Assembly: GCA_026874595.1 (NCBI GenBank)
Contig: CM049319.1
Coordinates: 41,829,973-41,893,972 of the forward strand
From: Sipunculus nudus
Lineage: Eukaryota; Annelida; Sipuncula; Golfingiida; Sipunculidae
Length of the DNA: 64,000 nucleotides
Reading direction: 5' to 3'
Positions 1 to 42,446 of the stretch are shown in pieces. The notes beneath the pieces were generated by a model that made no database searches, was not told the origin of the DNA, and was given only the letters and a program-made list of their open reading frames with translations. Numbering within the stretch: the stretch's first letter is position 1; every line of letters begins with the position of its first letter. The translations under genes were made by a program, and so were the position numbers.

Positions 1-25
1 AAGCTTGTAAAACGCTTCTTTCGCA

Positions 26-33
26 ATTTAAAT
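26..33. other. ATTTAAAT palindrome (SwaI/DraI site), one per monomer
   Basis: This perfect 8-base palindrome occurs in nearly every monomer. With AAGCTT at 1-6 it predicts a 129-bp ladder on SwaI, DraI or HindIII digestion. It is lost in the divergent monomers at 22391 and 23810 and in scattered copies with indels, for example near 34659, 47341, 50053 and 52111. Confidence 0.9.
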
Positions 34-75
34 CGGCCATTTTTGCAGAAAACACGATCTTGTATTACGCGAAAA

Positions 76-90
76 CCGAGCTGATTTCGG
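76..90. other. Short inverted repeat CCGA-7-TCGG
   Basis: CCGA at 76-79 pairs with TCGG at 87-90 around a 7-base loop. The element recurs in most monomers. The frequent variant GCGAG for CCGAG (for example 333, 848 and many block 3 copies) weakens it. The stem is only 4 bp, so a stable structure is doubtful. Confidence 0.4.
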
Positions 91-101
91 CCAAAACGAC
101 G
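85..101 (+). other. CENP-B-box-like 17-mer (7 of 9 core bases)
   Basis: Against the evolutionarily conserved core NTTCGNNNNANNCGGGN, the monomer reads TTTCGGCCAAAACGACG. TTCG, the central A and CG match, and the last two core G positions are A and C. Both major alleles (GGCC and GGCG) keep the same seven matches. CENP-B boxes bind pogo-transposase-derived CENP-B in mammals, and degenerate boxes are reported in other lineages. A 7/9 match in AT-rich DNA can occur by chance, so this is a candidate only. Confidence 0.25.
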
Positions 102-104
102 TTT
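94..104. other. 11-base dyad AAACGACGTTT
   Basis: AAACG and CGTTT are perfect inverted halves around a central A. It is conserved in nearly all monomers and overlaps the CENP-B-box-like stretch. Short dyads are enriched in centromeric satellites that lack a functional CENP-B box, so this may matter if the array is centromeric. A variant with T in place of G (ACGACTTTTG, for example near 1003) breaks it in a minority of copies. Confidence 0.5.
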
Positions 105-239
105 GTAACAGCTTCTAAATGGCCTAATGAAGCTTGTAAAACGCTTCTTTCGCAATTTAAATCGGCCATTTTTGCAGAAAACACGATCTTGTATTACGCG
201 AAAACCGAGCTGATTTCGGCGAAAACGACGTTTGTAACA

Positions 240-1005
240 TCTTCTAAATGGCCTAATGAAGCTTGTAAAACGCTTCTTTCGCAATTTAAATCGGCCATTT
301 TTGCAGAAAACACGATCTTGTATTACGCGAAAAGCGAGCTGATTTCGGCCAAAACGACGTTTGTAACAGCTTCTAAATGGCCTAATGAAGCTTGTAAAAC
401 GCTTCTTTCGCAATTTAAATCGGCCATTTTTGCAGAAAACACGATCTTGTATTACGCGAAAACCGAGCTGATTTCGGCGAAAACGACGTTTGTAACAGCT
501 TCTAAATGGCCTAATGAAGCTTGTAAAACGCTTCTTTCGCAATTTAAATCGGCCATTTTTGCAGAAAACACGATCTTGTATTACGCGAAAACCGAGCTGA
601 TTTCGGCCAAAACGACGTTTGTAACAGCTTCTAAATGGCCTAATGAAGCTTGTAAAACGCTTCTTTCGCAATTTAAATCGGCCATTTTTGCAGAAAACAC
701 GATCTTGTATTACGCGAAAACCGAGCTGATTTCGGCGAAAACGACGTTTGTAACAGCTTCTAAATGGTCTAATGAAGCTTGTAAAACGCTTCTTTCGCAA
801 TTTAAATCGGCCATTTTTGCAGAAAACACGATCTTGTATTACGCGAAAAGCGAGCTGATTTCGGCGAAAACGACGTTTGTAACAGCTTCTAAATGGCCTA
901 ATGAAGCTTGTAAAACGCTTCTTTCGCAATTTAAATCGGCCATTTTTGCAGAAAACACGATCTTGTATTACGCGAAAACCGAGCTGATTTCGGCGAAAAC
1001 GACTT
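240..1005 (+). repeat. Family B marker series 2, inverted copy
   Basis: Reading from right to left, four linked variants occur: ACTTTTG at 1002, TGGTCT at 769, AGCGAG at 333 and ACATCTTCT at 240. The same variants in the same order and spacing (about 235, 435 and 95 bases) occur in reverse complement at 63005, 63241, 63674 and 63769. This ties block 1 to block 3. Confidence 0.75.
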
Positions 1006-1610
1006 TTGTAACAGCTTCTAAATGGCCTAATGAAGCTTGTAAAACGCTTCTTTCGCAATTTAAATCGGCCATTTTTGCAGAAAACACGATCTTGTATTAC
1101 GCGAAAACCGAGCTGATTTCGGCGAAAACGACGTTTGTAACAGCTTCTAAATGGCCTAATGAAGCTTGTAAAACGCTTCTTTCGCAATTTAAATCGGCCA
1201 TTTTTGCAGAAAACACGATCTTGTATTACGCGAAAACCGAGCTGATTTCGGCCAAAACGACGTTTGTAACAGCTTCTAAATGGCCTAATGAAGCTTGTAA
1301 AACGCTTCTTTCGCAATTTAAATCGGCCATTTTTGCAGAAAACACGATCTTGTATTACGCGAAAACCGAGCTGATTTCGGGCAAAACGACGTTTGTAACA
1401 GCTTCTAAATGGCCTAATGAAGCTTGTAAAACCCTTCTTTCGCAATTTAAATCGGCCATTTTTGCAGAAAACACGATCTTGTATTACGCGAAAACCGAGC
1501 TGATTTCGGCGAAAACGACGTTTGTAACAGCTTCTAAATGGCCTAATGAAGCTTGTAAAACGCTTCTTTCGCAATTTAAATCGGCCATTTTTGCAGAAAA
1601 CACGATCTTG

Positions 1611-2900
1611 TAATACGCGAAAACCGAGCTGATTTCGGGCAAAACGACGTTTGTAACAGCTTCTAAATGGCCTAATGAAGCTTGTAAAACGCTTCTTTCG
1701 CAATTTAAATCGGCCATTTTTGCAGAAAACACGATCTTGTATTACGCGAAAACCGAGCTGATTTCGGCCAAAACGACGTTTGTAACAGCTTCTAAATGGC
1801 CTAATGAAGCTTGTAAAACGCTTCTTTCGCAATTTAAATCGGCCATTTTTGCAGAAAACACGATCTTGTATTACGCGAAAACCGAGCTGATTTCGGCGAA
1901 AACGACGTTTGTAACAGCTTCTAAATGGCCTAATGAAGCTTGTAAAACGCTTCTTTCGCAATTTAAATCGGCCATTTTTGCAGAAAACACGATCTTGTAT
2001 TACGCGAAAACCGAGCTGATTTCGGCGAAAACGACGTTTGTAACAGCTTCTAAATGGCCTAATGAAGCTTGTAAAACGCTTCTTTCGCAATTTAAATCGG
2101 CCATTTTTGCAGAAAACACGATCTTGTATTACGCGAAAACCGAGCTGATTTCGGCCAAAACGACGTTTGTAACAGCTTCTAAATGGCCTAATGAAGCTTG
2201 TAAAACCCTTCTTTCGCAATTTAAATCGGCCATTTTTGCAGAAAACACGATCTTGTATTACGCGAAAACCGAGCTGATTTCGGCCAAAACGACGTTTGTA
2301 ACAGCTTCTAAATGGCCTAATGAAGCTTGTAAAACGCTTCTTTCGCAATTTAAATCGGCCATTTTTGCAGAAAACACGATCTTGTATTACGCGAAAACCG
2401 AGCTGATTTCAACGAAAACGACTTTTGTAACAGCTTCTAAATGGCCTAATGAAGCTTGTAAAACGCTTCTTTCGCAATTTAAATCGGCCATTTTTGCAGA
2501 AAACACGATCTTGTATTACGCGAAAACCGAGCTGATTTCGGCCAAAACGACGTTTGTAACAGCTTCTAAATGGCCTAATGAAGCTTGTAAAACGCTTCTT
2601 TCGCAATTTAAATCGGCCATTTTTGCAGAAAACACGATCTTGTATTACGCGAAAACCGAGCTGATTTCGGCGAAAACGACGTTTGTAACAGCTTCTAAAT
2701 GGCCTAATGAAGCTTGTAAAACCCTTCTTTCGCAATTTAAATCGGCCATTTTTGCAGAAAACACGATCTTGTATTACGCGAAAACCGAGCTGATTTCGGC
2801 GAAAACGACGTTTGTAACAGCTTCTAAATGGCCTAATGAAGCTTGTAAAACGCTTCTTTCGCAATTTAAATCGGCCATTTTTGCAGAAAACACGATCTTG
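1611..2900 (+). repeat. 10-monomer higher-order unit
   Basis: This unit is bounded by consecutive TTGTAATACG + TTCGGGCAAAA double-variant monomers at 1611 and 2901, exactly 1290 bases (10 x 129) apart. Its monomer series resembles that of 2901-4577 but is three monomers shorter, as expected from unequal crossover. One monomer has a private TTTCAACGAAAA change near 2408. Confidence 0.7.
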
Positions 2901-4577
2901 TAATACGCGAAAACCGAGCTGATTTCGGGCAAAACGACGTTTGTAACAGCTTCTAAATGGCCTAATGAAGCTTGTAAAACGCTTCTTTCGCAATTTAAAT
3001 CGGCCATTTTTGCAGAAAACACGATCTTGTATTACGCGAAAACCGAGCTGATTTCGGCCAAAACGACGTTTGTAACAGCTTCTAAATGGCCTAATGAAGC
3101 TTGTAAAACGCTTCTTTCGCAATTTAAATCGGCCATTTTTGCAGAAAACACGATCTTGTATTACGCGAAAACCGAGCTGATTTCGGCGAAAACGACGTTT
3201 GTAACAGCTTCTAAATGGCCTAATGAAGCTTGTAAAACGCTTCTTTCGCAATTTAAATCGGCCATTTTTGCAGAAAACACGATCTTGTATTACGCGAAAA
3301 CCGAGCTGATTTCGGCGAAAACGACGTTTGTAACAGCTTCTAAATGGCCTAATGAAGCTTGTAAAACGCTTCTTTCGCAATTTAAATCGGCCATTTTTGC
3401 AGAAAACACGATCTTGTATTACGCGAAAACCGAGCTGATTTCGGCCAAAACGACGTTTGTAACAGCTTCTAAATGGCCTAATGAAGCTTGTAAAACCCTT
3501 CTTTCGCAATTTAAATCGGCCATTTTTGCAGAAAACACGATCTTGTATTACGCGAAAACCGAGCTGATTTCGGCCAAAACGACGTTTGTAACAGCTTCTA
3601 AATGGCCTAATGAAGCTTGTAAAACGCTTCTTTCGCAATTTAAATCGGCCATTTTTGCAGAAAACACGATCTTGTATTACGCGAAAACCGAGCTGATTTC
3701 GGCCAAAACGACGTTTGTAACAGCTTCTAAATGGCCTAATGAAGCTTGTAAAACGCTTCTTTCGCAATTTAAATCGGCCATTTTTGCAGAAAACACGATC
3801 TTGTATTACGCGAAAACCGAGCTGATTTCGGCGAAAACGACGTTTGTAACAGCTTCTAAATGGCCTAATGAAGCTTGTAAAACGCTTCTTTCGCAATTTA
3901 AATCGGCCATTTTTGCAGAAAACACGATCTTGTATTACGCGAAAACCGAGCTGATTTCGGCCAAAACGACGTTTGTAACAGCTTCTAAATGGCCTAATGA
4001 AGCTTGTAAAACGCTTCTTTCGCAATTTAAATCGGCCATTTTTGCAGAAAACACGATCTTGTATTACGCGAAAACCGAGCTGATTTCGGCGAAAACGACG
4101 TTTGTAACAGTTTCTAAATGGCCTAATGAAGCTTGTAAAACGCTTCTTTCGCAATTTAAATCGGCCATTTTTGCAGAAAACACGATCTTGTATTACGCGA
4201 AAACCGAGCTGATTTCGGCCAAAACGACGTTTGTAACAGCTTCTAAATGGCCTAATGAAGCTTGTAAAACGCTTCTTTCGCAATTTAAATCGGCCATTTT
4301 TGCAGAAAACACGATCTTGTATTACGCGAAAACCGAGCTGATTTCGGCGAAAACGACGTTTGTAACAGCTTCTAAATGGCCTAATGAAGCTTGTAAAACC
4401 CTTCTTTCGCAATTTAAATCGGCCATTTTTGCAGAAAACACGATCTTGTATTACGCGAAAACCGAGCTGATTTCGGCGAAAACGACGTTTGTAACAGCTT
4501 CTAAATGGCCTAATGAAGCTTGTAAAACGCTTCTTTCGCAATTTAAATCGGCCATTTTTGCAGAAAACACGATCTTG
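2901..4577 (+). repeat. 13-monomer higher-order unit
   Basis: The next unit is bounded by the same double-variant monomers at 2901 and 4578, exactly 1677 bases (13 x 129) apart. The start and end monomer types match the preceding 10-mer. The extra three monomers lie in the interior. Confidence 0.7.
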
Positions 4578-4780
4578 TAATACGCGAAAACCGAGCTGAT
4601 TTCGGGCAAAACGACGTTTGTAACAGCTTCTAAATGGCCTAATGAAGCTTGTAAAACGCTTCTTTCGCAATTTAAATCGGCCATTTTTGCAGAAAACACG
4701 ATCTTGTATTACGCGAAAACCGAGCTGATTTCGGCCAAAACGACGTTTGTAACAGCTTCTAAATGGCCTAATAAAGCTTC
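4108..4780 (+). repeat. Family B signature, inverted copy
   Basis: Reading right to left: AATAAAGCTTCT (4770), TTCGGGC with TTGTAATACG (4605-4578), AAAACCCTTC (about 4399), CAGTTTC (4108). This is the reverse complement of the signature seen six times in block 3, with the same order and spacing. Confidence 0.8.
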
Positions 4781-6013
4781 TAAAACGCTTCTTTCGCAAT
4801 TTAAATCGGCCATTTTTGCAGAAAACACGATCTTGTATTACGCGAAAACCGAGCTGATTTCGGCGAAAACGACGTTTGTAACAGCTTCTAAATGGCCTAA
4901 TGAAGCTTGTAAAACCCTTCTTTCGCAATTTAAATCGGCCATTTTTGCAGAAAACACGATCTTGTATTACGCGAAAACCGAGCTGATTTCGGCGAAAACG
5001 ACGTTTGTAACAGCTTCTAAATGGCCTAATGAAGCTTGTAAAACGCTTCTTTCGCAATTTAAATCGGCCATTTTTGCAGAAAACACGATCTTGTATTACG
5101 CGAAAACCGAGCTGATTTCGGCGAAAACGACGTTTGTAACAGCTTCTAAATGGCCTAATGAAGCTTGTAAAACGCTTCTTTCGCAATTTAAATCGGCCAT
5201 TTTTGCAGAAAACACGATCTTGTATTACGCGAAAACCGAGCTGATTTCGGCGAAAACGACGTTTGTAACAGCTTCTAAATGGCCTAATGAAGCTTGTAAA
5301 ACGCTTCTTTCGCAATTTAAATCGGCCATTTTTGCAGAAAACACGATCTTGTATTACGCGAAAACCGAGCTGATTTCGGCCAAAACGACGTTTGTAACAG
5401 CTTCTAAATGGCCTAATGAAGCTTGTAAAACCCTTCTTTCGCAATTTAAATCGGCCATTTTTGCAGAAAACACGATCTTGTATTACGCGAAAACCGAGCT
5501 GATTTCGGCCAAACGACGTTTGTAACAGCTTCTAAATGGCCTAATGAAGCTTGTAAAACGCTTCTTTCGCAATTTAAATCGGCCATTTTTGCAGAAAACA
5601 CGATCTTGTATTACGCGAAAACCGAGCTGATTTCGGCCAAAACGACGTTTGTAACAGCTTCTAAATGGTCTAATGAAGCTTGTAAAACGCTTCTTTCGCA
5701 ATTTAAATCGGCCATTTTTGCAGAAAACACGATCTTGTATTACGCGAAAACCGAGCTGATTTCGGCGAAAACGACGTTTGTAACAGTTTCTAAATGGCCT
5801 AATGAAGCTTGTAAAACGCTTCTTTCGCAATTTAAATCGGCCATTTTTGCAGAAAACACGATCTTGTATTACGCGAAAACCGAGCTGATTTCGGCCAAAA
5901 CGACGTTTGTAACAGCTTCTAAATGGCCTAATGAAGCTTGTAAAACGCTTCTTTCGCAATTTAAATCGGCCATTTTTGCAGAAAACACGATCTTGTATTA
6001 CGCGAAAACCGAG

Positions 6014-6513
6014 NNNNNNNNNNNNNNNNNNNNNNNNNNNNNNNNNNNNNNNNNNNNNNNNNNNNNNNNNNNNNNNNNNNNNNNNNNNNNNNNNNNNNNN
6101 NNNNNNNNNNNNNNNNNNNNNNNNNNNNNNNNNNNNNNNNNNNNNNNNNNNNNNNNNNNNNNNNNNNNNNNNNNNNNNNNNNNNNNNNNNNNNNNNNNNN
6201 NNNNNNNNNNNNNNNNNNNNNNNNNNNNNNNNNNNNNNNNNNNNNNNNNNNNNNNNNNNNNNNNNNNNNNNNNNNNNNNNNNNNNNNNNNNNNNNNNNNN
6301 NNNNNNNNNNNNNNNNNNNNNNNNNNNNNNNNNNNNNNNNNNNNNNNNNNNNNNNNNNNNNNNNNNNNNNNNNNNNNNNNNNNNNNNNNNNNNNNNNNNN
6401 NNNNNNNNNNNNNNNNNNNNNNNNNNNNNNNNNNNNNNNNNNNNNNNNNNNNNNNNNNNNNNNNNNNNNNNNNNNNNNNNNNNNNNNNNNNNNNNNNNNN
6501 NNNNNNNNNNNNN
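6014..6513. other. Assembly gap 1 (500 N); array polarity flips across it
   Basis: Exactly 500 Ns, a conventional placeholder length. The left flank ends at monomer position 80 in plus orientation. The right flank starts near monomer position 44 in minus orientation. Whatever joins the two opposed arrays is not sequenced here. Confidence 0.99.
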
Positions 6514-30187: not shown

Positions 30188-33100
30188 TTACAAACGTCGT
30201 TTTCGCCGAAATCAGCTCGGTTTTCGCGTAATACAAGATCGTGTTTTCTGCAAAAATGGCCGATTTAAATTGCGAAAGAAGCGTTTTACAAGCTTCATTA
30301 GGCCATTTAGAAGCTGTTACAAACGTCGTTTTGGCCGAAATCAGCTCGGTTTTCGCGTAATACAAGATCGTGTTTTCTGCAAAAATGGCCGATTTAAATT
30401 GCGAAAGAAGCGTTTTACAAGCTTCATTAGGCCATTTAGAAGCTGTTACAAACGTCGTTTTGGCCGAAATCAGCTCGGTTTTCGCGTAATACAAGATCGT
30501 GTTTTCTGCAAAAATGGCCGATTTAAATTGCGAAAGAAGCGTTTTACAAGCTTCATTAGGCCATTTAGAAGCTGTTACAAACGTCGTTTTGGCCGAAATC
30601 AGCTCGGTTTTCGCGTAATACAAGATCGTGTTTTCTGCAAAAATGGCCGATTTAAATTGCGAAAGAAGCGTTTTACAAGCTTCATTAGGCCATTTAGAAG
30701 CTGTTACAAACGTCGTTTTGGCCGAAATCAGCTCGTTTTCGCGTAATACAAGATCGTGTTTTTCTGCAAAAATGGCCGATTTAAATTGCGAAAGAAGCGT
30801 TTTACAAGCTTCATTAGGCCATTTAGAAGCTGTTACAAACGTCGTTTTGGCCGAAATCAGCTCGGTTTTCGCGTAATACAAGATCGTGTTTTCTGCAAAA
30901 ATGGCCGATTTAAATTGCGAAAGAAGCGTTTTACAAGCTTCATTAGGCCATTTAGAAGCTGTTACAAACGTCGTTTTGGCCGAAATCAGCTCGGTTTTCG
31001 CGTAATACAAGATCGTGTTTTCTGCAAAAATGGGCCGATTTAAATTGCGAGAGAAGCGTTTTACAAGCTTCATTAGGCCATTTAGAAGCTGTTACAAACG
31101 TCGTTTTGGCCGAAATCAGCTCGGTTTTCGCGTAATACAAGATCGTGTTTTCTGCAAAAATGGCCGATTTAAATTGCGAAAGAAGCGTTTTACAAGCTTC
31201 ATTAGGCCATTTAGAAGCTGTTACAAACGTCGTTTTGGCCGAAATCAGCTCGGTTTTCGCGTAATACAAGATCGTGTTTTCTGCAAAAATGGCCGATTTA
31301 AATTGCGAAAGAAGCGTTTTACAAGCTTCATTAGGCCATTTAGAAGCTGTTACAAACGTCGTTTTCGCCGAAATCAGCTCGGTTTTCGCGTAATACAAGA
31401 TCGTGTTTTCTGCAAAAATGGCCGATTTAAATTGCGAAAGAAGCGTTTTACAAGCTTCATTAGGCCATTTAGAAGCTGTTACAAACGTCGTTTTGGCCGA
31501 AATCAGCTCGGTTTTCGCGTAATACAAGATCGTGTTTTCTGCAAAAATGGCCGATTTAAATTGCGAAAGAAGCGTTTTACAAGCTTCATTAGGCCATTTA
31601 GAAGCTGTTACAAACGTCGTTTTGGCCGAAATCAGCTCGGTTTTCGCGTAATACAAGATCGTGTTTTCTGCAAAAATGGCCGATTTAAATTGCGAAAGAT
31701 GCGTTTTACAAGCTTCATTAGGCCATTTAGAAGCTGTTACAAACGTCGTTTTGGCCGAAATCAGCTCGGTTTTCGCGTAATACAAGATCGTGTTTTCTGC
31801 AAAAATGGCCGATTTAAATTGCGAAAGAAGCGTTTTACAAGCTTCATTAGGCCATTTAGAAGCTGTTACAAACGTCGTTTTGGCCGAAATCAGCTCGGTT
31901 TTCGCGTAATACAAGATCGTGTTTTCTGCAAAAATGGCCGATTTAAATTGCGAAAGAAGCGTTTTACAAGCTTCATTAGGCCATTTAGAAGCTGTTACAA
32001 ACGTCGTTTTGGCCGAAATCAGCTCGGGTTTTCGCGTAATACAAGATCGTGTTTTCTGCAAAAATGGCCGATTTAAATTGCGAAAGAAGCGTTTTACAAG
32101 CTTCATTAGGCCATTTAGAAGCTGTTACAAACGTCGTTTTGGCCGAAATCAGCTCGGTTTTCGCGTAATACAAGATCGTGTTTTCTGCAAAAATGGCCGA
32201 TTTAAATTGCGAAAGAAGCGTTTTACAAGCTTCATTAGGCCATTTAGAAGCTGTTACAAACGTCGTTTTGGCCGAAATCAGCTCGGTTTTCGCGTAATAC
32301 AAGATCGTGTTTTCTGCAAAAATGGGCCGATTTAAATTGCGAAAGATGCGTTTTACAAGCTTCATTAGGCCATTTAGAAGCTGTTACAAACGTCGTTTTG
32401 GCCGAAATCAGCTCGGTTTTCGCGTAATACAAGATCGTGTTTTCTGCAAAAATGGCCGATTTAAATTGCGAAAGAAGCGTTTTACAAGCTTCATTAGGCC
32501 ATTTAGAAGCTGTTACAAACGTCGTTTTGGCCGAAATCAGCTCGGTTTTCGCGTAATACAAGATCGTGTTTTCTGCAAAAATGGCCGATTTAAATTGCGA
32601 AAGAAGCGTTTTACAAGCTTCATTAGGCCATTTAGAAGCTGTTACAAACGTCGTTTTGGCCGAAATCAGCTCGGTTTTCGCGTAATACAAGATCGTGTTT
32701 TCTGCAAAAATGGCCGATTTAAATTGCGAAAGAAGCGTTTACAAGCTTCATTAGGCCATTTAGAAGCTGTTACAAACGTCGTTTTGGCCGAAATCAGCTC
32801 GGTTTTCGCGTAATACAAGATCGTGTTTTCTGCAAAAATGGCCGATTTAAATTGCGAAAGAAGCGTTTTACAAGCTTCATTAGGCCATTTAGAAGCTGTT
32901 ACAAACGTCGTTTTGGCCGAAATCAGCTCGGTTTTCGCGTAATACAAGATCGTGTTTTCTGCAAAAATGGCCGATTTAAATTGCGAAAGAAGCGTTTTAC
33001 AAGCTTCATTAGGCCATTTAGAAGCTGTTACAAACGTCGTTTTGGCCGAAATCAGCTCGGTTTTCGCGTAATACAAGATCGTGTTTTCTGCAAAAATGGC

Positions 33101-35959
33101 CGATTTAAATTGCGAAAGATGCGTTTACAAGCTTCATTAGGCCATTTAGAAGCTGTTACAAACGTCGTTTTGGCCGAAATCAGCTCGGTTTTCGCGTAAT
33201 ACAAGATCGTGTTTTCTGCAAAAATGGCCGATTTAAATTGCGAAAGAAGCGTTTTACAAGCTTCATTAGGCCATTTAGAAGCTGTTACAAACGTCGTTTT
33301 GGCCGAAATCAGCTCGGTTTTCGCGTAATACAAGATCGTGTTTTCTGCAAAAATGGCCGATTTAAATTGCGAAAGAAGCGTTTTACAAGCTTCATTAGGC
33401 CATTTAGAAGCTATTACAAACGTCGTTTTCGCCGAAATCAGCTCGGTTTTCGCGTAATACAAGATCGTGTTTTCTGCAAAAATGGCCGATTTAAATTGCG
33501 AAAGAAGCGTTTTACAAGCTTCATTAGGCCATTTAGAAGCTGTTACAAACGTCGTTTTGGCCGAAATCAGCTCGGTTTTCGCGTAATACAAGATCGTGTT
33601 TTCTGCAAAAATGGCCGATTTAAATTGCGAAAGAAGCGTTTTACAAGCTTCATTAGGCCATTTAGAAGCTGTTACAAACGTCGTTTTGGCCGAAATCAGC
33701 TCGGTTTTCGCGTAATACAAGATCGTGTTTTCTGCAAAAATGGCCGATTTAAATTGCGAAAGAAGCGTTTTACAAGCTTCATTAGGCCATTTAGAAGCTG
33801 TTACAAACGTCGTTTTGGCCGAAATCAGCTCGGTTTTCGCGTAATACAAGATCGTGTTTTCTGCAAAAATGGCCGATTTAAATTGCGAAAGAAGCGTTTT
33901 ACAAGCTTCATTAGGCCATTTAGAAGCTGTTACAAACGTCGTTTTGGCCCGAAATCAGCTCGGTTTTCGCGTAATACAAGATCGTGTTTTCTGCAAAAAT
34001 GGCCGATTTAAATTGCGAAAGAAGCGTTTTACAAGCTTCATTAGGCCATTTAGAAGCTGTTACAAACGTCGTTTTCGCCGAAATCAGCTCGGTTTTCGCG
34101 TAATACAAGATCGTGTTTTCTGCAAAAATGGCCGATTTAAATTGCGAAAGAAGCGTTTTACAAGCTTCATTAGGCCATTTAGAAGCTGTTACAAACGTCG
34201 TTTTCGCCGAAATCAGCTCGGTTTTTCGCGTAATACAAGATCGTGTTTTCTGCAAAAATGGCCGATTTAAATTGCGAAAGAAGCGTTTTACAAGCTTCAT
34301 TAGGCCATTTAGAAGCTGTTACAAAACGTCGTTTTCGCCGAAATCAGCTCGGTTTTCGCGTAATACAAGATCGTGTTTTCTGCAAAAATGGCCGATTTAA
34401 ATTGCGAAAGAAGCGTTTTACAAGCTTCATTAGGCCATTTAGAAGCTGTTACAAACGTCGTTTTGGCCGAAATCAGCTCGGTTTTCGCGTAATACAAGAT
34501 CGTGTTTTCTGCAAAAAATGGCCGATTTAAATTGCGAAAGATGCGTTTTACAAGCTTCATTAGGCCATTTAGAAGCTGTTACAAACGTCGTTTTGGCCGA
34601 AATCAGCTCGGTTTTCGCGTAATACAAGATCGTGTTTTCTGCAAAAATGGCCGATTTAAATGCGAAAGAAGCGTTTTACAAGCTTCATTAGGCCATTTAG
34701 AAGCTGTTACAAACGTCGTTTTGGCCGAAATCAGCTCGGTTTTCGCGTAATACAAGATCGTGTTTTCTGCAAAAATGGCCGATTTAAATTGCGAAAGAAG
34801 CGTTTTACAAGCTTCATTAGGCGATTTAGAAGCTGTTACAAAACGTCGTTTTCGCCGAAATCAGCTCGGTTTTCGCGTAATACAAGATCGTGTTTTCTGC
34901 AAAAATGGCCGATTTAAATTGCGAAAGAAGCGTTTTACAAGCTTCATTAGGCCATTAGAAGCTGTTACAAACGTCGTTTTGGCCGAAATCAGCTCGGTTT
35001 TCGCGTAATACAAGATCGTGTTTTCTGCAAAAATGGCCGATTTAAATTGCGAAAGAAGCGTTTTACAAGCTTCATTAGGCCATTTAGAAGCTGTTACAAA
35101 CGTCGTTTTGGCCGAAATCAGCTCGGTTTTCGCGTAATACAAGATCGTGTTTTCTGCAAAAATGGCCGATTTAAATTGCGAAGAAGCTTTTTACAAGCTT
35201 CATTAGGCCATTTAGAAGCTGTTACAAAACGTCGTTTTCGCCGAAATCAGCTCGGTTTTCGCGTAATACAAGATCGTGTTTTCTGCAAAAATGGCCGATT
35301 TAAATTGCGAAAGAAGCGTTTTACAAGCTTCATTAGGCCATTTAGAAGCTGTTACAAACGTCGTTTTCGCCGAAATCAGCTCGGTTTTCGCGTAATACAA
35401 GATCGTGTTTTCTGCAAAAATGGCCGATTTAAATTGCGAAAGAAGCGTTTTACAAGCTTCATTAGGCCATTTAGAAGATGTTACAAACGTCGTTTTGGCC
35501 GAAATCAGCTCGGTTTTCGCGTAATACAAGATCGTGTTTTCTGCAAAAAATGGCCGATTTAAATTGCGAAAGAAGCGTTTTACAAGCTTCATTAGGCCAT
35601 TTAGAAGCTGTTACAAACGTCGTTTTGGCCGAAATCAGCTCGGTTTTCGCGTAATACAAGATCGTGTTTTCTGCAAAAATGGCCGATTTAAATTGCGAAA
35701 GAAGCGTTTTACAAGCTTCATTAGGCCATTTAGAAGCTGTTACAAACGTCGTTTTGGCCGAAATCAGCTCGGTTTTCGCGTAATACAAGATCGTGTTTTC
35801 TGCAAAAATGGCCGATTTAAATTGCGAAAGAAGCGTTTTACAAGCTTCATTAGGCCATTTAGAAGCTGTTACAAACGTCGTTTTCGCCGAAATCAGCTCG
35901 GTTTTCGCGTAATACAAGATCGTGTTTTCTGCAAAAATGGCCGATTTAAATTGCGAAAG

Positions 35960-37160
35960 AAGGGTTTTACAAGCTTCATTAGCCATTTAGAAGCTGTTAC
36001 AAACGTCGTTTTGGCCGAAATCAGCTCGCTTTTCGCGTAATTCAAGATCGTGTTTTCTGCAAAAATGGCCGATTTAAATTGCGAAAGAAGCGTTTTACAA
36101 GCTTCATTAGGCCATTTAGAAGCTGTTACAAACGTCGTTTTGGCCGAAATCAGCTCGGTTTTCGCGTAATACAAGATCGTGTTTTCTGCAAAAATGGCCG
36201 ATTTAAATTGCGAAAGAAGCGTTTTACAAGCTTCATTAGGCCATTTAGAAGCTGTTACAAACGTCGTTTTGGCCGAAATCAGCTCGGTTTTCGCGTAATA
36301 CAAGATCGTGTTTTCTGCAAAAATGGCCGATTTAAATTGCGAAAGAAGCGTTTTACAAGCTTCATTAGGCCATTTAGAAGCTGTTACAAACGTCGTTTTG
36401 GCCGAAATCAGCTCGGTTTTCGCGTAATACAAGATCGTGTTTTCTGCAAAAATGGCCGATTTAAATTGCGAAAGAAGCGTTTTACAAGCTTCATTAGGCC
36501 ATTTAGAAGCTGTTACAAACGTCGTTTTGGCCGAAATCAGCTCGGTTTTCGCGTAATACAAGATCGTGTTTTCTGCAAAAATGGCCGATTTAAATTGCGA
36601 AAGATGCGTTTTACAAGCTTCATTAGGCCATTTAGAAGCTGTTACAAACGTCGTTTTGGCCGAAATCAGCTCGGTTTTCGCGTAATACAAGATCGTGTTT
36701 TCTGCAAAAATGGCCGATTTAAATTGCGAAAGAAGCGTTTTACAAGCTTCATTAGGCCATTTAGAAGCTGTTACAAACGTCGTTTTGGTCGAAATCAGCT
36801 CGGTTTTCGCGTAATACAAGATCGTGTTTTCTGCAAAAATGGCCGATTTAAATTGCGAAAGATGCGTTTTACAAGCTTCATTAGGCCATTTAGAAGCTGT
36901 TACAAACGTCGTTTTGGCCGAAATCAGCTCGGTTTTCGCGTAATACAAGATCGTGTTTTCTGCAAAAATGGCCGATTTAAATTGCGAAAGAAGCGTTTTA
37001 CAAGCTTCATTAGGCCATTTAGAAGCTGTCACAAACGTCGTTTTGGCCGAAATCAGCTCGGTTTTCGCGTAATACAAGATCGTGTTTTCTGCAAAAATGG
37101 CCGATTTAAATTGCGAAAGAAGCGTTTTACAAGCTTCATTAGGCCATTTAGAAGCTATTA
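35960..37160 (-). repeat. Segmental duplication S2, copy 1
   Basis: GAAGGG with AGCTCGC and GTAATTCAAG (36041), AGATGCG (36603), the otherwise rare GTTTTGGTCG (36788), AGATGCG (36861), GAAGCTGTCAC (37028) and GAAGCTATTAC (37157). The same six markers recur 4772-4773 bases (37 monomers) later, up to gap 2. Confidence 0.9.
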
Positions 37161-38769
37161 CAAACGTCGTTTTCGCCGAAATCAGCTCGGTTTTCGCGTA
37201 ATACAAGATCGTGTTTTCTGCAAAAATGGCCGATTTAAATTGCGAAAGAAGCGTTTTACAAGCTTCATTAGGCCATTTAGAAGCTGTTACAAACGTCGTT
37301 TTGGCCGAAATCAGCTCGGTTTTCGCGTATACAAGATCGTGTTTTCTGCAAAAATGGCCGATTTAAATTGCGAAAGAAGCGTTTTACAAGCTTCATTAGG
37401 CCATTTAGAAGCTGTTACAAACGTCGTTTTGGCCGAAATCAGCTCGGTTTTCGCGTAATACAAGATCGTGTTTTCTGCAAAAATGGCCGATTTAAATTGC
37501 GAAAGAAGCGTTTTACAAGCTTCATTAGGCCATTTAGAAGCTGTTACAAACGTCGTTTTGGCCGAAATCAGCTCGGTTTTCGCGTAATACAAGATCGTGT
37601 TTTCTGCAAAAATGGCCGATTTAAATTGCGAAAGAAGCGTTTTACAAGCTTCATTAGGCCATTTAGAAGCTGTTACAAACGTCGTTTTGGCCGAAATCAG
37701 CTCGGTTTTCGCGTAATACAAGATCGTGTTTTCTGCAAAAATGGCCGATTTAAATTGCGAAAGAAGCGTTTTACAAGCTTCATTAGGCCATTTAGAAGCT
37801 GTTACAAACGTCGTTTTGGCCGAAATCAGCTCGGTTTTCGCGTAATACAAGATCGTGTTTTCTGCAAAAATGGCCGATTTAAATTGCGAAAGAAGCGTTT
37901 TACAAGCTTCATTAGGCCATTTTAGAAGCTGTTACAAACGTCGTTTTGGCCGAAATCAGCTCGGTTTTCGCGTAATACAAGATCGTGTTTTCTGCAAAAA
38001 TGGCCGATTTAAATTGCGAAAGAAGCGTTTACAAGCTTCATTAGGCCATTTAGAAGCTGTTACCAACGTCGTTTTGGCCGAAAATCAGCTCGGTTTTCGC
38101 GTAATACAAGATCGTGTTTTCTGCAAAAATGGCCGATTTAAATTGCGAAAGAAGCGTTTTACAAGCTTCATTAGGCCATTTAGAAGCTGTTACAAACGTC
38201 GTTTTGGCCGAAATCAGCTCGGTTTTCGCGTAATACAAGATCGTGTTTTCTGCAAAAATGGCCGATTTAAATTGCGAAAGAAGCGTTTTACAAGCTTCAT
38301 TAGGCCATTTAGAAGCTGTTACAAACGTCGTTTTCGCCGAAATCAGCTCGGTTTTCGCGTAATACAAGATCGTGTTTTCTGCAAAAATGGCCGATTTAAA
38401 TTGCGAAAGAAGCGTTTTACAAGCTTCATTAGGCCATTTAGAAGCTATTACAAACGTCGTTTTCGCCGAAATCAGCTCGGTTTTCGCGTAATACAAGATC
38501 GTGTTTTCTGCAAAAATGGCCGATTTAAATTGCGAAAGAAGCGTTTTACAAGGTTCATTAGGCCATTTAGAGCTGTTACAAACGTCGTTTTGGCCGAAAT
38601 CAGCTCGGTTTTCGCGTAATACAAGATCGTGTTTTCTGCAAAAAATGGCCGATTTAAATTGCGAAAGAAGCGTTTTACAAGCTTCATTAGGCCATTTAGA
38701 AGCTGTTACAAACGTCGTTTTCGCCGAAATCAGCTCGGTTTTCGCGTAATACAAGATCGTGTTTTCTGC

Positions 38770-39414
38770 AAAAATGGCCGATTTAAATTGCGAAAGAAGG
38801 GTTTTACAAGCTTCATTAGGCCATTTAGAAGCTGTTACAAACGTCGTTTTGGCCGAAATCAGCTCGCTTTTCGCGTAATTCAAGATCGTGTTTTCTGCAA
38901 AAATGGCCGATTTAAATTGCGAAAGAAGCGTTTTACAAGCTTCATTAGGCCATTTAGAAGCTGTTACAAAACGTCGTTTTGGCCGAAATCAGCTCGCTTT
39001 TCGCGTAATACAAGATCGTGTTTTCTGCAAAAATGGCCGATTTAAATTGCGAAAGAAGCGTTTTACAAGCTTCATTAGGCCATTTAGAAGATGTTACAAA
39101 CGTCGTTTTCGCCGAAATCAGCTCGGTTTTCGCGTAATACAAGATCGTGTTTTCTGCAAAAATGGCCGATTTAAATTGCGAAAGAAGCGTTTTACAAGCT
39201 TCATTAGGCCATTTAGAAGCTGTTACAAACGTCGTTTTGGCCGAAATCAGCTCGGTTTTCGCGTAATACAAGATCGTGTTTTCTGCAAAAATGGCCGATT
39301 TAAATTGCGAAAGAAGCGTTTTACAAGCTTCATTAGGCCATTTAGAAGCTGTTACAAACGTCGTTTTCGCCGAAATCAGCTCGGTTTTCGCGTAATACAA
39401 GATCGTGTTTTCTG
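38770..39414 (-). repeat. 5-monomer unit, copy 1
   Basis: Monomer order: GAAGGG + AGCTCGC + GTAATTC; AGCTCGC; GAAGATG; plain; plain. The first marker recurs exactly 645 bases (5 x 129) downstream. A one-base insertion (ACAAAACGTC near 38970) and a one-base loss near 39417 cancel out. Confidence 0.82.
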
Positions 39415-39930
39415 CAAAATGGCCGATTTAAATTGCGAAAGAAGGGTTTTACAAGCTTCATTAGGCCATTTAGAAGCTGTTACAAACGTCGTTTTGGCCG
39501 AAATCAGCTCGCTTTTCGCGTAATTCAAGATCGTGTTTTCTGCAAAAATGGCCGATTTAAATTGCGAAAGAAGCGTTTTACAAGCTTCATTAGGCCCATT
39601 TAGAAGCTGTTACAAACGTCGTTTTGGCCGAAATCAGCTCGCTTTTCGCGTAATACAAGATCGTGTTTTCTGCAAAAATGGCCGATTTAAATTGCGAAAG
39701 AAGCGTTTTACAAGCTTCATTAGGCCATTTAGAAGATGTTACAAACGTCGTTTTCGCCGAAATCAGCTCGGTTTTCGCGTAATACAAGATCGTGTTTTCT
39801 GCAAAAATGGCCGATTTAAATTGCGAAAGAAGCGTTTTACAAGCTTCATTAGGCCATTTAGAAGCTGTTACAAACGTCGTTTTGGCCGAAATCAGCTCGG
39901 TTTTCGCGTAATACAAGATCGTGTTTTCTG
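39415..39930 (-). repeat. 5-monomer unit, copy 2 (four monomers match)
   Basis: The same monomer order as 38770-39414 holds for four monomers. It then diverges at a monomer with private changes (GGCCTATTT and TTGAGAAAG near 39940-39955). An extra C is present near 39595. Confidence 0.78.
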
Positions 39931-40734
39931 CAAAAATGGCCTATTTAAATTGAGAAAGAAGGGTTTTACAAGCTTCATTAGGCCATTTAGAAGCTGTTAC
40001 AAACGTCGTTTTGGCCGAAATCAGCTCGGTTTTCGCGTAATACAAGATCGTGTTTTCTGCAAAAATGGCCGATTTAAATTGCGAAAGAAGCGTTTTACAA
40101 GCTTCATTAGGCCATTTAGAAGCTGTTACAAACGTCGTTTTGGCCGAAATCAGCTCGGTTTTCGCGTAATACAAGATCGTGTTTTCTGCAAAAATGGCCG
40201 ATTTAAATTGCGAAAGAAGGGTTTTACAAGCTTCATTAGGCCATTTAGAAGCTGTTACAAACGTCGTTTTGGCCGAAATCAGCTCGGTTTTCGCGTAATA
40301 CAAGATCGTGTTTTCTGCAAAAATGGCCGATTTAAATGCGAAAGAAGCGTTTTACAAGCTTCATTAGGCCATTTAGAAGCTGTTACAAACGTCGTTTTGG
40401 CCGAAATCAGCTCGGTTTTCGCGTAATACAAGATCGTGTTTTCTGCAAAAAATGGCCGATTTAAATTGCGAAGAAGCGTTTTACAAGCTTCATTAGGCCA
40501 TTTAGAAGCTGTTACAAACGTCGTTTTGGCCGAAATCAGCTCGGTTTTCGCGTAATACAAGATCGTGTTTTCTGCAAAATGGCCGATTTAAATTGCGAAA
40601 GAAGCGTTTTACAAGCTTCATTAGGCCATTTAGAAGCTGTTACAAACGTCGTTTTCGCCGAAATCAGCTCGGTTTTCGCGTAATACAAGATCGTGTTTTC
40701 TGCAAAAATGGCCGATTTAAATTGCGAAGAAGGG

Positions 40735-41946
40735 TTTTACAAGCTTCATTAGGGCCATTTAGAAGCTGTTACAAACGTCGTTTTGGCCGAAATCAGCTCG
40801 CTTTTCGCGTAATTCAAGATCGTGTTTTCTGCAAAAATGGCCGATTTAAATTGCGAAAGAAGCGTTTTACAAGCTTCATTAGGCCATTTAGAAGCTGTTA
40901 CAAACGTCGTTTTGGCCGAAATCAGCTCGGTTTTCGCGTAATACAAGATCGTGTTTTCTGCAAAAATGGCCGATTTAAATTGCGAAAGAAGCGTTTTACA
41001 AGCTTCATTAGGCCATTTAGAAGCTGTTACAAACGTCGTTTTGGCCGAAATCAGCTCGGTTTTCGCGTAATACAAGATCGTGTTTTCTGCAAAAATGGCC
41101 GATTTAAATTGCGAAAGAAGCGTTTTTACAAGCTTCATTAGGCCATTTAGAAGCTGTTACAAACGTCGTTTTGGCCGAAATCAGCTCGGTTTTCGCGTAA
41201 TACAAGATCGTGTTTTCTGCAAAAATGGCCGATTTAAATTGCGAAAGAAGCGTTTTACAAGCTTCATTAGGCCATTTAGAAGCTGTTACAAACGTCGTTT
41301 TGGCCGAAATCAGCTCGGTTTTCGCGTAATACAAGATCGTGTTTTCTGCAAAAATGGCCGATTTAAATTGCGAAAGATGCGTTTTACAAGCTTCATTAGG
41401 CCATTTAGAAGCTGTTACAAACGTCGTTTTGGCCGAAATCAGCTCGGTTTTCGCGTAATACAAGATCGTGTTTTCTGCAAAAATGGCCGATTTAAATTGC
41501 GAAAGAAGCGTTTTACAAGCTTCATTAGGCCATTTAGAAGCTGTTACAAACGTCGTTTTGGTCGAAATCAGCTCGGTTTTCGCGTAATACAAGATCGTGT
41601 TTTCTGCAAAAATGGCCGATTTAAATTGCGAAAGATGCGTTTTACAAGCTTCATTAGGCCATTTAGAAGCTGTTACAAACGTCGTTTTGGCCGAAATCAG
41701 CTCGGTTTTCGCGTAATACAAGATCGTGTTTTCTGCAAAAATGGCCGATTTAAATTGCGAAAGAAGCGTTTTACAAGCTTCATTAGGCCATTTAGAAGCT
41801 GTCACAAACGTCGTTTTGGCCGAAATCAGCTCGGTTTTCGCGTAATACAAGATCGTGTTTTCTGCAAAAATGGCCGATTTAAATTGCGAAAGAAGCGTTT
41901 TACAAGCTTCATTAGGCCATTTAGAAGCTATTACAAACGTCGTTTT
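40735..41946 (-). repeat. Segmental duplication S2, copy 2, truncated by gap 2
   Basis: Carries GTAATTCAAG (40813), AGATGCG (41376), GTTTTGGTCG (41561), AGATGCG (41634), GAAGCTGTCAC (41801) and GAAGCTATTAC (41930), each 4772-4773 bases from its counterpart in 35960-37160. The copy runs directly into the Ns, so its true right end is unknown. Confidence 0.9.
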
Positions 41947-42446
41947 NNNNNNNNNNNNNNNNNNNNNNNNNNNNNNNNNNNNNNNNNNNNNNNNNNNNNN
42001 NNNNNNNNNNNNNNNNNNNNNNNNNNNNNNNNNNNNNNNNNNNNNNNNNNNNNNNNNNNNNNNNNNNNNNNNNNNNNNNNNNNNNNNNNNNNNNNNNNNN
42101 NNNNNNNNNNNNNNNNNNNNNNNNNNNNNNNNNNNNNNNNNNNNNNNNNNNNNNNNNNNNNNNNNNNNNNNNNNNNNNNNNNNNNNNNNNNNNNNNNNNN
42201 NNNNNNNNNNNNNNNNNNNNNNNNNNNNNNNNNNNNNNNNNNNNNNNNNNNNNNNNNNNNNNNNNNNNNNNNNNNNNNNNNNNNNNNNNNNNNNNNNNNN
42301 NNNNNNNNNNNNNNNNNNNNNNNNNNNNNNNNNNNNNNNNNNNNNNNNNNNNNNNNNNNNNNNNNNNNNNNNNNNNNNNNNNNNNNNNNNNNNNNNNNNN
42401 NNNNNNNNNNNNNNNNNNNNNNNNNNNNNNNNNNNNNNNNNNNNNN
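41947..42446. other. Assembly gap 2 (500 N)
   Basis: Exactly 500 Ns. Both flanks are satellite in the same (minus) orientation. The left flank is family A sequence duplicated from about 36-37 kb; the right flank leads into family B. The change of family therefore coincides with this gap. Confidence 0.99.

Follow-up and report, generated by a model that had tools for sequence, protein, structure and literature searches.

Very probably, the 64,000-bp window of Sipunculus nudus DNA analysed here is part of a chromosome-specific, locally amplified satellite array whose contigs were not reliably ordered or oriented by the Hi-C scaffolder. The first 6 kb of the window (block 1) appear inverted, but this most likely reflects an error in scaffolding and not a biological event. 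Block 1 grouped with the distant block 3 and not with the adjacent block 2, and every change of orientation examined, in this array and in those on five other scaffolds, fell at a gap of fixed length.

Layout of the satellite array on scaffold C14

The window corresponds to C14:41829973-41893972 in an assembly of 153 scaffolds representing a 1.43-Gb genome. Apart from two gaps of exactly 500 N, it consisted throughout of a 129-bp satellite, with 46.6, 274.6, and 167.2 copies in blocks 1, 2, and 3, respectively, and 98% matches. When the context was extended by 50 kb per side, the array was found to be approximately 134 kb long and to be divided into five pieces (A to E) by four 500-N gaps, which started at -33284, 6014, 41947, and 66372 in window coordinates. 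The pieces, the gaps within and bordering the window, and two series of monomers discussed below were as follows.

Piece A, minus strand: satellite part of about 10.7 kb, running gap-free into non-satellite DNA
Contig B, -32784 to 6013 (38,798 bp), minus strand: gap-free, with block 1 as its right end
Block 1, 1 to 6013, minus strand: 129-bp satellite monomers, the last 6 kb of contig B
Series 2, 240 to 1005, minus strand: monomer types 3-14-9-0-1-5-8
Series 1, 4108 to 4780, minus strand: monomer types 10-6-1-2-0-7
Gap, 6014 to 6513: 500-N scaffolding gap, at which the strand switches from minus to plus
Block 2 (contig C), 6514 to 41946, plus strand: 129-bp satellite of a sub-family different from that of block 1
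Gap, 41947 to 42446: 500 N, with the same orientation on both sides
Block 3 (contig D), 42447 to 64000 and continuing to 66371, plus strand: sub-family of block 1
Gap, from 66372: 500 N, ending contig D; the strand returns to minus
Piece E, from 66872, minus strand: satellite part of about 24.5 kb, running gap-free into non-satellite DNA

Contig D was thus block 3 plus 2.4 kb, and contig B reached 32.8 kb leftwards past the window start without a gap. Block 1, which the initial annotation had regarded as a possible misplaced contig of its own, is actually the end of this gap-free 38.8-kb contig. Pieces A, B, C, and D were about 98-99% identical over 1.3 kb. The exception was piece E (C14:41896844-about 41921000), a divergent form of the satellite with 5.4 substitutions per monomer. 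Proteins resembling those of transposons are encoded beside the array. In its flank, at C14:41938411-41943699, neighbouring minus-strand ORFs were observed which, inspected by eye, read like a PIF1-type helicase and an endonuclease-like segment, as in Helitrons.

Sub-families within the array

Each piece was aligned to a cyclic consensus and its monomers were typed by their substitutions; one-base indels were set aside because they were clustered in certain stretches. These indels amounted to 0.45 per monomer in contig D and 0.06 in contig B, being dense at 42447-about 57000 (left half of D) and about 31000-41946 (C) and nearly absent across most of contig B. Their uneven density along the array suggests unequal polishing or read support.

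Local alignment of the monomer strings gave a score of 55.5 for the reverse complement of block 1 against block 3 (200 shuffles: mean 13.0, maximum 20.9) and a score of 55.1 for block 1 against the remainder of contig B. Against block 2 the score was 13.1, which is at shuffle level, being reached by 37 of the 200 shuffles. Rare substitution types identified in the monomer typing were distributed in the same way: 12 were common to B and D, 4 to each of the pairs B-C, C-D, A-B, A-C, and A-D, and 0 or 1 to piece E and any other piece. Informative monomer runs, which had to be exact, comprise 7 or more monomers, and include at least 3 informative types, numbered 32 between B and D and 29 within B, and none was found for B-C, C-D, or A versus any piece. 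Contig C carried none of the monomer types private to B and D and had types of its own, including 28A>T, 31G>T, 64G>A, and 69A>C. These results strongly support the grouping of block 1 with block 3 rather than block 2, as had been proposed. Contigs B and D are one sub-family and C is another, with greater divergence in the edge pieces A and E.

By mismatch counts, some windows of contig D had C as their best match, and an intermediate position of D, between B and C, was therefore considered. This reading was rejected because those windows were runs of the commonest monomers and because C and D had only the 4 rare types, and no informative runs, in common.

Marker monomer and monomer series

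The marker monomer, in which GTTTTGCCCG and GTATTAC occur together, was present 3 times in block 1 (as the reverse complement) and 5 times in the part of block 3 lying in the window. Its count in block 2 was 0, in agreement with the earlier observation that the pair was not seen in 6.5-42 kb. A search of the whole genome showed 22 copies of this double-variant monomer, 17 in contig B and 5 in contig D, and none outside these two contigs.

The two series had been described as recurring in block 3 with the same spacing. Series 1 had exact matches (6/6 monomers) at two positions of contig D, 54550 and 57129, compared with 3/6 for its top match in block 2, and it also recurred several times in other parts of contig B. 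Series 2 was matched at 5/7 monomers in contig D at 62934 and at 6/7 at two other places in contig B, with a top match of 2/7 in block 2. Both series were borne out in block 3, with only weak counterparts in block 2. The spacing differed, the distance between the two series being about 29 monomers in block 1 versus about 45 in block 3.

Probable local amplification

Repeats of the array against itself, above the level of shuffles, were detected in three of the pieces. In contig B the lags were 58 and 103 monomers, with a longest exact run of 30 monomers, and in contig D they were 72, 79, and 80 monomers; in piece E, a stretch of 31 monomers (about 4 kb) was duplicated exactly, at lag 31. We infer from this pattern that monomers were copied locally and repeatedly, through unequal exchange or a comparable mechanism. 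Blocks of monomers, up to about 30 monomers long within B, would have been copied repeatedly, and different stretches of the array would have drifted into local sub-families. B and D would then be two stretches of one sub-family or, less likely, diverged haplotypes.

Orientation changes and gaps

In the C14 array the strand switched only at the gaps starting at 6014 and 66372, and the fully read C14 pieces (about 133 kb) contained no gap-free strand change. The edge pieces A and E, both of which are joined to non-satellite DNA, have the minus orientation of block 1. Blocks 2 and 3 are therefore the reversed pieces, and the earlier description of block 1 as an inverted piece was not borne out.

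All 8 flips examined, on six scaffolds, were located at 500-N gaps: two on C14, two on C4 (28162385 and 28289163), one on C13 (45202932), and one each on C2, C3, and C150. No gap-free flip was seen in C4, C13, C2, C3, and C150, which were sampled at intervals, so that short ones were possibly missed. On C16, a 61-kb array that is gap-free and was fully read had a single orientation. Since scaffolding gaps make up approximately 1.5% of the C14 array, coincidence of flips and gaps by chance is not plausible. Orientation changes restricted to scaffolding gaps are the pattern of misorientation, and a spacer of 500 N is the default of 3d-dna and SALSA2 (PMC6952475). Head-to-head junctions might by themselves cause an assembly to break; therefore, the location of flips at gaps is no strict proof of error.

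No end-to-end (dovetail) overlap between B and D or between C and D was found in 1.29-kb windows or in monomer runs, and adjacency of B and D is thus argued from family similarity only.

Probable scaffolding artefact and alternative explanations

The findings can be accommodated as follows. The assembler would have split the array into five pieces, and a Hi-C scaffolder using 500-N spacers would have placed the near-identical, satellite-only contigs without reliable order or strand information. The wrongly oriented pieces are most likely contigs C and D (blocks 2 and 3), of which D probably belongs closer to contig B. Flipping C and D as a unit would render the whole array head-to-tail and bring block 3 beside block 1. 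This correction would fit, as would the order A-C-D-B-E in one orientation. Of the two readings that the initial annotation had offered, misplacement or misorientation is accordingly favoured, by the 8/8 flips at gaps, over a genuine inversion accompanying an insertion or expansion.

Several other explanations were weighed against a scaffolding error. The C and D segment, or part of it, might be truly reversed, with the assembly having broken at both ends of the inversion owing to the difficulty of assembling near-identical repeats in opposite orientations. Inversions within primate centromere arrays have been documented (PMC11062924), and the flips at 6014 and 66372 do enclose C and D as a single segment. 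We nevertheless consider a real inversion improbable, because flips coincide with 500-N gaps on five other scaffolds too, no inversion junction was found inside any contig, and undoing the flip of C and D places B beside D, which is a better sub-family order. It is also quite improbable that the array truly alternates in orientation, several chromosomes having head-to-head and tail-to-tail blocks as a regular centromere feature at which assemblies break.

A special case of the artefact would be that B and D are two haplotypes of one stretch, D being a duplicate that was misplaced and misoriented. Contigs B and D have private monomer types in common as well as 1.3-kb stretches with 0-1 mismatches, and the higher indel rate of contig D would be in keeping with such an origin. 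However, in contigs that each exceed 20 kb, the longest monomer run common to both was 15 units (about 1.9 kb), and neither of the duplication lags of contig B (58 and 103 monomers) recurs among those of contig D (72, 79, and 80). The short longest run and the unlike lags indicate that B and D are not colinear copies, and the haplotype explanation appears rather unlikely. As for the similarity of blocks 1 and 3 having arisen by chance from the great uniformity of the satellite, to which the high identity of all pieces other than E might lend itself, the probability is practically negligible: it is contradicted by the shuffles, none of which came near the observed monomer-order score, and by the marker monomers, which genome-wide are private to contigs B and D. 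A scaffolding error thus accounts best for the arrangement of the window. Inversions or sub-family insertions should not be read from satellite contigs that are separated by gaps of fixed length, and sub-family markers can assist in repairing contig order and orientation.

Identity of the satellite

The 129-bp repeat is probably the centromeric satellite of C14 and of this genome. It forms a long head-to-tail tandem array (approximately 134 kb) and its 129-bp period lies within the range of 100-200 bp. Of the 17 scaffolds with the lowest numbers, 14 carried variant-bearing monomers of the satellite (C1, C2, C3, C4, C7, C8, and C10-C17). With the sparse variant-monomer probe used, the satellite occurred mostly at one place per scaffold and at two places on C1, C3, and C11, and it was not seen on C5, C6, and C9. 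Monomer variants were chromosome-specific: the consensus differed among C14, C4, and C13 at positions 25, 48, 49, 69, and 113 of the rotated monomer, and the marker monomer was private to C14. On C11, the satellite was observed both at the scaffold start (C11:30312-50735) and at C11:50651040; perhaps a contig was misplaced or there are two arrays. The monomer consensus was CpG-rich (observed/expected 1.9), in contrast to CpG-depleted DNA.

An alpha-satellite-like array with CENP-B boxes was also considered and rejected. The best match to the CENP-B box TTCGNNNNANNCGGG was at 7 of 9 positions, and 29% of shuffled monomers did equally well or better, so that the match is no better than chance. 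No matching description of a 129-bp centromeric satellite was found in the published literature searched. The repeat makes a good centromere candidate, and its chromosome-specific variants would be useful as FISH probes.

Bacterial sequences in the assembly

Bacterial cytochrome oxidase genes were observed on scaffolds C60, C61, C62, C66, C72, C74, C75, C89, and C123, with nine near-identical copies of 577-578 aa spread over eight of them. A search for COX1 led to such bacterial contigs and yielded no identifiable mitochondrion. The best relatives of the one copy compared were only about 53-58% identical among the bacterial genomes searched; therefore, an undescribed bacterium, either associated with the animal or contaminating, is likely to be represented in the assembly.

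Comparison with known systems

The arrangement on C14 resembles misorientation in Hi-C scaffolding with the 500-N joins of 3d-dna or SALSA2, in that a uniform 500-N gap lies at every orientation change and the contigs concerned are repeat-only, without unique anchors; the assembly method was deduced here from the gap length. Compared with human alpha satellite, the array is similar in its head-to-tail monomers, chromosome-specific variants, and nested multi-monomer duplications, and in having edges that diverge more than the middle. It is different in its 129-bp monomer, in that the duplications are irregular (58, 103, 72, and 80 monomers) with no fixed higher-order unit, and in that the array is only approximately 134 kb long as assembled.
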